From Spirochaeta sp. (GTDB lineage: Bacteria > Spirochaetota > Spirochaetia > DSM-27196 > Alkalispirochaetaceae), in the NCBI GenBank assembly GCA_027859055.1, contig JAQIBO010000379.1, positions 1 through 37,554 of the forward strand: 37,554 nt of DNA, given 5' to 3'. The first letter of the stretch is position 1. Every line of letters begins with the position of its first letter. The position numbers and the translations under genes are program-made. The notes under the pieces are model-generated. The model made no database searches. It saw only the letters and a program-made list of their open reading frames with translations, and was not told the DNA's origin. Positions 16,174-22,560 of the stretch are shown piece after piece.

Positions 16174-18078
16174 GTGAGAGTACGATCACAGATCAATTTG
16201 CTGGTTATCATCCTGTTACTGTCCATCGGTCTCATTACCGTCGGATTATTCGTTGCCAACACCGTTGCCGCCCGGGTTGATAACCTCGAGCTCGCCGTAA
16301 GCCAGGCGCTACAGGATGTCTATCGTCTGACCTCGATTAACAAGGATCTCATGGTTACCGAGATGCCCCTTGACCAGGTAATCGACGGGTGGAAGACGGC
16401 GATCGAGGACCTTGACGAGGCTCTTACCGCCCTCCCGGACCATCCCGGCACGGCGTATATAAGCGACAGTGTTGGCGAATCCCTGGAGCGGACCCTGTCG
16501 GTCTGGAGTCTGTCGCTGTCCCGGCTGGAAACCGCCCGGGAATCCTTTGATCTGCTGATCGAAAGTGACTCGATTCACGATTTCCGGAAGACCGGCCTTA
16601 TCGAGCTTGCAGCATATCTGGAAGAGGAGGAGCAGGTTGCGACGTTACTCTTCCAGGTTGAGCAACTCACGCGGGACCTCGAGTCGTTTGATCTGTCCGC
16701 TCGGGACCTGGTTGTCGGCAATTTGCAGGAGGTCGCCGGAGCGGTGGCGATTCAGGCGGATACGATCCGGACAACCGGGCGCCGCGCCATTTTACTTTTG
16801 ACCGTTATCGTTGTTGTCGGATCGTTTGTATTTGTGTATCTCTTCGGTCGCAGCCTTTCCCGCCGGGTGGGGGCGATAGAGAACGTGATGGAGCGCGTTG
16901 CGGCCCAGGATATGACGGTCCGCGCAGCGACGAGCGGAAACGATGAGATCGCCGGCCTGGGCCGGTATCTCGACAAAGGTCTCGACGTTATCGCCGCGTT
17001 CATCAGCTCGGTACGACGCGCCGTGACGGAGAACGATGAACTCAAGGACGGACTCTCGTCGGGGTCCGCCGAAAGCGCCTCTGCGGTGAATGAGATCAGT
17101 CATAATATCGATTCGATCCGCACCGAGTTTGACCGCCTCAACGGGCGCATTGAGCAAAGCTCGATCGCCGTTGGAGATATCGATACCAAAATCAAGTCGC
17201 TGAACCACGATATCTCACAACAGAACACGATTATCGAAGACAGCACCGCGTCGTACGAACAGATGGACAGCTCGATTCAGCAGGTAGCGCAGCTTTCGGT
17301 TGACCGGCGCGAGGCGGCGGAGTCGCTGGTTCAGGTTATCCTTGATGGTGGCGAAAAGATCACCACCACCAACAGCGTGATCGATTCCGTCACCGCCGAG
17401 GTGGACGATATCCTTGAGATTATTGAAATCATAAACGCCGTCGCCGAGCAGACCAATCTGCTCTCGATGAACGCTGCGATTGAGAGTGCCCACGCCGGCG
17501 AAGCGGGGAAGGGGTTTGCGGTTGTTGCGGAAGAGATTCGCAAACTCGCTGAAAGCACCTCGGAAAACGCGTCCAAAATTGACCGGTTGCTCAAGTCGAT
17601 TACCGGCAAGATCGGTGAGGCGGTGGACGCAAGCCGTGCCGGAGCGGATACGTTTGAGACGATCCGGAAAGACGTCGGGCTCTTTCGGGAGGCGATGCAC
17701 GAGATCGTGGAAAATATGCAGACCTTGAGCGAGGGAAGCGCATCAATCGTTGGAACAACGCAGCGTCTGTCGGAGATCACCGGGTCGGTTACCGACGCTG
17801 CCGGAACGATCGCCGCCAACACCGATCAGATAAACGCGGCGATGGGGGACGCTTCCAACATGTCAAGTTCCATCGCCAACGGTATCAAAGAGATCGATAT
17901 CGGTGCCAAGGAGATTCTCACCGCGATTACCGATATCTCGCGCCTGTCCGACGAAAACCGCGAGCGCATGCAGGAGCTTGCGGAGTTGATTGACCGGTTT
18001 GATCTCGCCGACGAGCAGTCTGACAAGCAGTCTGTGGATACCCCCGGTCAGAGTACCGGGGTCACGGAGGCGGAGTGA
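16174..18078 (+). CDS. methyl-accepting chemotaxis protein
   Basis: TM helices plus HAMP and the signalling tip '[51 protein letters not shown]'. Confidence 0.96.
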   Translation: MRVRSQINLLVIILLLSIGLITVGLFVANTVAARVDNLELAVSQALQDVYRLTSINKDLMVTEMPLDQVIDGWKTAIEDLDEALTALPDHPGTAYISDSVGESLERTLSVWSLSLSRLETARESFDLLIESDSIHDFRKTGLIELAAYLEEEEQVATLLFQVEQLTRDLESFDLSARDLVVGNLQEVAGAVAIQADTIRTTGRRAILLLTVIVVVGSFVFVYLFGRSLSRRVGAIENVMERVAAQDMTVRAATSGNDEIAGLGRYLDKGLDVIAAFISSVRRAVTENDELKDGLSSGSAESASAVNEISHNIDSIRTEFDRLNGRIEQSSIAVGDIDTKIKSLNHDISQQNTIIEDSTASYEQMDSSIQQVAQLSVDRREAAESLVQVILDGGEKITTTNSVIDSVTAEVDDILEIIEIINAVAEQTNLLSMNAAIESAHAGEAGKGFAVVAEEIRKLAESTSENASKIDRLLKSITGKIGEAVDASRAGADTFETIRKDVGLFREAMHEIVENMQTLSEGSASIVGTTQRLSEITGSVTDAAGTIAANTDQINAAMGDASNMSSSIANGIKEIDIGAKEILTAITDISRLSDENRERMQELAELIDRFDLADEQSDKQSVDTPGQSTGVTEAE

Positions 18079-20921: not shown

Positions 20922-21308
20922 ATGGAAATCGTACGATTTGGTTCCGATGATATTGAAAACGCATTGAGCAAGATGGGTGACAGCCAGCTTGATGATCTCG
21001 CATTCGGGGCGGTTCAGCTCGATAGCGAGGGGAAAATTCTCTCGTACAACGCCGCGGAAAGCGAAATTACCGGGCGAAACGCTGACGACGTGATTGGAAA
21101 GAGCTTTTTTACCGAGGTTGCACCGTGCACCAACACGGACGAGTTCTACGGGAAGTTCAAGGAAGGTGTAGACTCGGGCAATCTCAACAGCTTGTTTGAG
21201 TATGTCTTTGACTACCAGATGACCCCGACCAAGGTCCAGGTCCACATGAAAAAGGCGCTGCAGGGCGACAGCTACTGGGTATTTGTGAAGCGGATCTCCC
21301 GCGGCTGA
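20922..21308 (+). CDS. pyp: photoactive yellow protein (PYP) blue-light receptor, 128 aa
   Basis: [128 protein letters not shown]; collinear with Halorhodospira halophila PYP without gaps (about 93/125 identical against my recalled sequence). Y42, E46, T50, R52, C69, M100 all present. Start refined from 20868 to ATG 20922 (purine-rich RBS upstream). Confidence 0.97.
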
Positions 21309-21320
21309 CGGGAATACGGG

Positions 21321-21337
21321 GGCGCCGTCGCGGCGCC
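21321..21337 (+). other. intercistronic hairpin between pyp and the ligase
   Basis: GGCGCCG-TCG-CGGCGCC, 7-bp perfect stem, 8 nt before the ligase ATG at 21346. Confidence 0.65.
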
Positions 21338-21345
21338 GCTGTTTC

Positions 21346-22560
21346 ATGGAACGGTTGATTAAAACACTTGGTCCCGGCGACCTTTTTCGGGTTGTCCGGG
21401 ACATTTTTATCGACGAGCTGGCGCGCAGCCGGGGCACCGGGTTTGACCGGGACGCCGCCCGGGATTGGAATCGGGATACAACTGTTCGCGAGAACGGGCT
21501 CGCCCTGGACTCGCTTGAGCGGTTCACCCTTGCGGGACGTCTCAACGAGACGTTTTCCCTGTTTGAAAGCGGCGTGGAAGACAACCTCCTGCGGACGCAG
21601 ACCCTTGGAGATACCGTTGACGTAATTCGCGCGGGACTGGACCATGCGGCGCCGGCGATCGCCTTTTACTCCGGGGGCACCACGGGAACTCCCCGGCCGC
21701 GGCGCCATGCGACGGAACTGCTGGAACAGGAGATCGCCGTACTGACGGAGATCTTCGCCGACCGCCGGCGCGTTATCGTCACGGCACCGGTCCACCACAT
21801 TTACGGCTTTCTTTTCGGCGTGCTTTTGCCCCGCGCCCTGGGCGTGCCGGCGGTCGACGCCCAGGGGACGTTCCTGTCCGGACCGCGCGCACCCGGCGCG
21901 CGTGATCTGGTGGTATCTGTTCCCTTTCTGTGGGAACGCCTGCAGCCGTCGATTTCCCGGTGGGGGCGAGACGTGTGGGGAACAAGCTCCACAGCGCCTT
22001 TGTCAGCGGACGTCGCCGACGGAAGTTGCGCGGCGGGGCTTGCCCGGCTGATCGAGATCTACGGCTCCAGCGAGACCGCCGGTATCGGCAGTCGTGACCG
22101 CTGCGACAGCCCCGGTCCGTTCACGCTCTTCCCGTACTGGCACGCTGTCCGGGACGTGCCCGTCGGTGAGACTGATCACGTATTACTGCGGGACCCGCCC
22201 GGCGGGGGAGAACCGCTCCGCTACGAGATCCCCGACCGGCTGCACTGGCACGATGAACGCCATATCGAACCGCTTGGTCGCCGCGACGCGGTTGTCCAGG
22301 TGGGGGGAGAGAACGTGGACCTTGAAGCGCTGCGTCGTCGTATCGTGGAAACGGTACCCGGGTGTACTGATTGCGCGGTGCGACTCGGTGAAAACGGGCG
22401 CATCCGGGCGTTTCTGGTGCCTGCGCGGACCGAGACGCTGACGCCGGAGGGTGTGGGAAGCGTTCTGCGGGAACGGTTGGCCGCCGCGGCGCTGCCGGCG
22501 ACTATTTCGATCGGTACCGAACTGCCCCGTGACGCCACCGGCAAGGTGACAAGCTGGTAG
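21346..22560 (+). CDS. 4-coumarate-CoA ligase-like enzyme of the PYP-activation type (AMP-binding) with N-terminal ACP-like segment
   Basis: AMP-binding motifs 'AFYSGGTTGTPRPRRH', 'IEIYGSSETAGIG', 'RRDAVVQVGGENVDLEALRRRI', 'LPRDATGKVTSW'; directly downstream of pyp. Residues ~1-98 contain 'NGLALDSLERFTLAGRLNETF', resembling an acyl carrier protein. Confidence 0.88.
   Translation: MERLIKTLGPGDLFRVVRDIFIDELARSRGTGFDRDAARDWNRDTTVRENGLALDSLERFTLAGRLNETFSLFESGVEDNLLRTQTLGDTVDVIRAGLDHAAPAIAFYSGGTTGTPRPRRHATELLEQEIAVLTEIFADRRRVIVTAPVHHIYGFLFGVLLPRALGVPAVDAQGTFLSGPRAPGARDLVVSVPFLWERLQPSISRWGRDVWGTSSTAPLSADVADGSCAAGLARLIEIYGSSETAGIGSRDRCDSPGPFTLFPYWHAVRDVPVGETDHVLLRDPPGGGEPLRYEIPDRLHWHDERHIEPLGRRDAVVQVGGENVDLEALRRRIVETVPGCTDCAVRLGENGRIRAFLVPARTETLTPEGVGSVLRERLAAAALPATISIGTELPRDATGKVTSW

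Follow-up and report, generated by a model that had tools for sequence, protein, structure and literature searches.

PYP is a model photoreceptor, the chromophore route of which is written up as TAL, then a CoA ligase, then attachment from p-coumaroyl-CoA. In the portions of PMC12826048 and PMC9664959 that were consulted, the ligase encoded beside pyp (pCL; TIGR02372) is described as a plain CoA ligase, the former source adding that p-coumaroyl-CoA is the product of pCL and that the activities were shown experimentally. The terms ‘carrier’ and ‘phosphopante’ occur in neither paper. According to PMC12826048, just 32% of 113 pyp operons include a pCL, therefore some PYPs may be charged without pCL and a carrier route is not necessarily universal. 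No description of a carrier domain in a PYP ligase was found in the literature searched, with subscription papers mostly outside it, and no ligase carrier was mentioned in the titles and abstract openings that pair PYP with acyl carrier protein or phosphopantethein, PMC3992019 among them.

Loading of an aryl acid onto the arm of an acyl carrier protein (ACP) is described in other pathways. ApeH (aryl polyenes) and EncN (enterocin), like the ligase analysed here, are adenylate-forming, and they are described in the consulted part of PMC8041823 as acyl:ACP and benzoate:ACP ligases. In both systems the ACP is separate and the product enters polyketide-type chain growth, whereas in the present ligase the predicted carrier is fused and the product would be a protein chromophore; aryl:ACP ligases of this kind are the nearest mechanistic relatives of the proposed route. 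The DltA/DltC and NRPS pairs also combine an adenylation enzyme with a phosphopantetheine carrier, the latter usually being a separate protein or positioned C-terminal to the adenylation domain, whereas here the putative carrier comes first and precedes an adenylation domain that is shortened at its N-terminus. The full-length model of the ligase aligned with DltA, EntF, PigI-PigG and LgrA chains (VIA-align). Simple thioesters can pass their aryl groups to PYP with no enzyme involved, and in PYP-tag self-labelling Cys69 likewise gains an aryl group by thioester exchange (both from the consulted part of PMC6273459), although the donors in that case are synthetic thiophenyl esters rather than the protein-bound arm proposed below.

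Organization of the pyp locus and identity of the ligase

The window analysed is a stretch of 37,554 nucleotides from Spirochaeta sp. (contig JAQIBO010000379.1), the source genome being a 4.38 Mb assembly of 534 contigs (completeness 91.2, contamination 6.0). On its forward strand it encodes a PYP of 128 amino acids (20922..21308) with the chromophore cysteine C69 (VAPC69T), which scored 203.7 bits against TIGR02373, above the cut-off of 143.05, and matched solved PYP chains at up to 209.6 bits. Following a gap of 37 nt, the same strand encodes a PYP-linked AMP-forming ligase of 404 amino acids (21346..22560), whose ATG at 21346 is the earliest start codon of its open frame. The ligase comprises an ACP-like carrier domain (residues 10-100, 21373..21645; helices 10-32, 56-70, 78-83 and 87-100) and, C-terminal to it, a truncated adenylation domain (residues 105-404, 21658..22560) with a nucleotide loop at residues 108-116, YGSSET at 239-244 and a C-terminal Lys, K400.

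A 7-bp perfect G+C hairpin (GGCGCCG-TCG-CGGCGCC, 21321-21337, forward strand) is located in the gap that separates the pyp stop codon from the start of the ligase, in a region with a fold z-score of -2.16 (21300-21360), and could damp expression of the ligase relative to that of PYP. Approximately 3 kb upstream of pyp, the forward strand also encodes a methyl-accepting chemotaxis protein with HAMP and signalling domains (16174-18078), the ORF of which shares 4 nt with a 168-aa ORF without a Pfam match; this chemotaxis protein is a possible candidate for a phototaxis partner.

The ligase occupies the same place beside pyp as the PYP-type pCL and is covered by the same full-length profile, including the N-terminal segment, with residues 14-401 aligning to positions 9-385 of the 386 in TIGR02372 at 267.5 bits. 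Because this score is under the curated cut-off of 334.7 bits, the window protein was regarded as a diverged PYP-linked relative and not as a TIGR02372 equivalog; in three scans the cut-off was exceeded in 0/296, 1/385 and 6/54 genomes. When residues 1-98 were compared alone they aligned to positions 8-90 of the model (E = 2.8e-12), and thus the segment is common to the whole family. The PF00501 match spans residues 98-249, and the ANL features found were the nucleotide loop, an A5 motif, the C-terminal Lys, and matches to ANL folds. K400 was present in 99 of 100 PYP-type ligases, the sole exception being that of Lichenibacterium minor (L090), which has Glu at this position and retains S56. 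The full model superposed on the thioester-forming ANL structure 3cw9 at 5.2 Å, and less well on the adenylate-bound 3cw8 (12.4 Å).

The N-terminal domain as a carrier protein

The first-pass annotation had likened the N-terminus of the ligase to an ACP, quoting residues 1-98 and placing a phosphopantetheinylation site at S56. These residues read as quoted, and S56 is encoded by the TCG codon at 21511-21513, within the D55-S56-L57 motif (21508..21516, forward strand) that forms the predicted phosphopantetheine site. An AlphaFold2 model built from the full ligase and 80 sequences (mean pLDDT 94.0, pTM 0.89) contained the four-helix ACP fold, in which the second long helix (helix II) begins at S56; the isolated domain, modelled alone, returned a pLDDT of 92.5 and a pTM of 0.85. 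In Foldseek searches with the isolated domain, ranks 1-22 were occupied by carrier proteins or by complex chains holding one, at probabilities of up to 1.00 and including a Plasmodium ACP with a TM-score of 0.77 (target length); the E-values were weak (0.073 to 2.5), with no match at E<=0.001. The best 50 rows of a VIA-align comparison contained carrier proteins at Z-scores of 9.1-11.0 and 1.6-3.9 Å, and none titled as another fold, noting that helical bundles may give Z-scores of up to about 13. The likeness to an ACP that had been proposed was therefore borne out in structural terms, both by the modelled fold and by its matches.

Comparisons using only the window sequence were weak: the domain had no match in Pfam (PF00550 included), and its N-terminus matched an NCBIfam ACP model with an E-value of 0.14. 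A profile-profile comparison (hhalign) with a two-sequence ACP alignment was also weak, with a probability of 26.9% over 23 columns. It is on the fold and on the profile of the family that the case rests. When 84 N-terminal segments were combined into a profile and searched against the PDB, ACPs made up 59 of the best 60 rows, from a total of 118 at E<=10, with the best E-value being 2.9e-4 (PigH) and one listed match being a lysozyme. Among the same 84 family segments, 39 were matched by PF00550 at E<=1 (best 3.9e-5). Assignment of residues ~10-100 as an ACP domain is a well-supported prediction of these models and profiles.

Conservation of the putative attachment site was assessed in 100 distinct ligases, consisting of the window protein, four from a phylum scan, 80 from a genome collection (the best 80 of 156 relatives) and 15 others, from the class of the L021 genome (Azospirillum) and the order of the L062 genome. 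Omitted from the counts were L011-L015 (no N-terminal match), L099 and L116 (duplicates of L021 and L062) and L106 (a fragment), whilst L043, which is cut by a contig start, is inside the 100 and outside A2 and A3. D55 and S56 were identical in all 100 ligases, L57 in 94, and no site ahead of residue 111 other than the former pair was invariant. On a FastTree tree of residues 10-100, a median of 30 changes was inferred per site, with zero found only at D55 and S56. The S56 codons were of the TCN (91/100) or AGY (9/100) class, with at least six switches between classes by parsimony; as single-base steps between TCN and AGY go via other amino acids, it is the serine itself that has been retained. 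Mean pairwise identity was 36% in the carrier domain and 45% in the adenylation part, and the linker joining the two was 5-14 residues in length (median 6). Conservation of S56 in homologues had been set beforehand as a test able to refute the carrier proposal, which the proposal withstood. An HIYG pattern, independent of the motif, was present at all 80 collection loci, thus no locus required the DSLE pattern to be found. A chance DSL motif was ruled out by the complete conservation, the zero changes on the tree and survival of the codon-class switches.

Linkage to PYP and distribution of the domain

A PYP was present within the fetched flank at 77 of the 80 collection loci, with a Cys69 copy at all 77, and the remaining three loci (L018, L043 and L074) were all on short contigs. 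At two loci the PYP beside the ligase was matched in two frames (L022, 3578-3947; L073, 202-575), which suggests a frameshift in either the gene or the assembly. The top four relatives in the genome collection bore the names Spirochaeta, Spirochaetaceae or Spirochaetes, and the relatives in this collection ruled out a feature private to the source genome.

In the phylum scan, TIGR02372 was matched at E<=1e-30 in 10 of 296 genomes; all five of these encoding a PYP had the DSL domain, and all five PYP-less genomes had a related ligase (L011-L015) with a different N-terminus and no such domain. The closest of these PYP-less relatives, L011 (217 bits; L117, 14497-16302), is a fusion protein of 602 aa that joins a PYP-ligase-like adenylation domain to an N-terminus resembling a ketosynthase. 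The aryl-polyene-like cluster to which it belongs also encodes two separate ACPs, and the genome is from the same phylum as the window.

Whether the segment is common to all PYP-associated ligases had been left as a question in the first-pass annotation, and it was found in every one examined, including the Halorhodospira-type ligase L107. The PYP adjoining L107 is identical at 124 of 125 positions to the crystallised H. halophila PYP, and the carrier site of this ligase reads RADSLDRL. Three of the 14 plasmid records with a match were examined; two plasmid ligases with a PYP alongside, counted outside the 100, have the DSLE site when inspected by eye. A Streptomyces plasmid relative, encoded beside an ammonia-lyase, lacks the carrier domain and has ~50 residues in its place, and no annotated PYP was present near it in the stretch read. 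A tblastn search of a phage collection with the ligase gave no match. Taken together, the analysis establishes the ACP fold, the invariance of S56 and the tight linkage to PYP.

Proposed route to holo-PYP and competing interpretations

What PYP operons encode under the name “p-coumarate:CoA ligase” is most likely a p-coumaroyl:ACP ligase with a carrier of its own. We consider it probable that the PYP-linked ligase is a one-protein device for activating and carrying the aryl group, with hand-over from an S56 arm to Cys69. With a little more reserve, we also favour the extension of this reading to the entire family, in that all of its PYP-linked ‘CoA ligases’ would be carrier-fused p-coumaroyl:ACP ligases from which the chromophore passes directly from the phosphopantetheine arm to Cys69. 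Both the presence of phosphopantetheine on S56 and transfer from this arm to the PYP cysteine are inferred, with the hand-over being plausible.

In the proposed route, a cellular phosphopantetheinyl transferase would install the arm on S56; the source genome encodes AcpS and a second PF01648 protein, and PF01648 was found in 10/10 other genomes tested. Judging from its fold and motifs, the adenylation domain would convert p-coumarate and ATP to p-coumaroyl-AMP, and p-coumaroyl would then be loaded onto the arm thiol of the N-terminal ACP of the same protein, in cis or across a dimer. As the linker is short, cis loading may be hindered and loading across a dimer is possible. Thioester exchange would subsequently proceed straight to Cys69 of the neighbouring PYP, without a separate transferase, and free CoA might also accept the acyl group as an alternative. 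A single MIO-type ammonia-lyase (PF00221; L098, G000:C375:11174-12574) is encoded on a contig other than that of pyp, and scored 370.4 bits with the BagA/FevW TAL model versus 368.9 bits with the HAL model, all under cut-off; this lyase is a candidate source of p-coumarate.

Other interpretations were weighed against direct transfer. A working carrier may load p-coumaroyl and then either store it or pass it to a soluble thiol such as free CoA, with the soluble thioester charging PYP, which would agree with the naming of p-coumaroyl-CoA as donor in the literature and with the reaction of several aryl thioesters with PYP in the absence of enzyme. However, an arm-bound thioester beside a self-acylating acceptor requires no further step, and the domain was confined to PYP-linked ligases in our sample, hence this route is considered unlikely. 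It is also quite unlikely that S56 is unmodified and that the protein is an ordinary p-coumarate:CoA ligase, the ACP domain of which is a vestige retained for stability or for docking to PYP: CoA-ligase activity is published (as stated in the consulted part of PMC12826048), the single-sequence ACP scores are weak and the linker is short, yet loss of the serine would be expected of a vestige, whereas D55/S56 are the sole invariant residues of a domain that is otherwise so variable, and S56 was kept through each of the codon-class switches.

The VIA-align ranges on the full model, which start at residues 1-7 against the N-termini of ANL enzymes, and the PRK08308 model, which likewise has about 97 positions ahead of its matching stretch, might instead indicate that the first ~100 residues correspond, in reduced form, to the N-terminal subdomain of an adenylate-forming enzyme, with the DSL motif being coincidental. 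Such an ANL subdomain remnant was nonetheless largely ruled out, as the isolated domain both folds as and matches ACPs, and ACPs are also what the family profile finds; the Streptomyces relative with only ~50 residues in this position further argues against a reading that we regard as highly improbable.

A p-coumaroyl:ACP ligase fused to its own carrier consists of known domains in an arrangement that was found to be unreported in the literature searched, and with an unexpected job. An invariant carrier site in this ligase family would alter the accepted scheme for the PYP chromophore, and a carrier would account for delivery of a reactive aryl thioester to one cysteine with no leakage into the CoA pool. 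If true, production of holo-PYP in a host would depend upon a compatible phosphopantetheinyl transferase; since PF01648 matches were present in the E. coli controls, co-expression in that host alone presumably cannot separate the CoA and carrier schemes. It would likewise follow that the cofactor of a photoreceptor is installed by means of a carrier protein, through chemistry akin to that used in aryl-polyene-type pathways.
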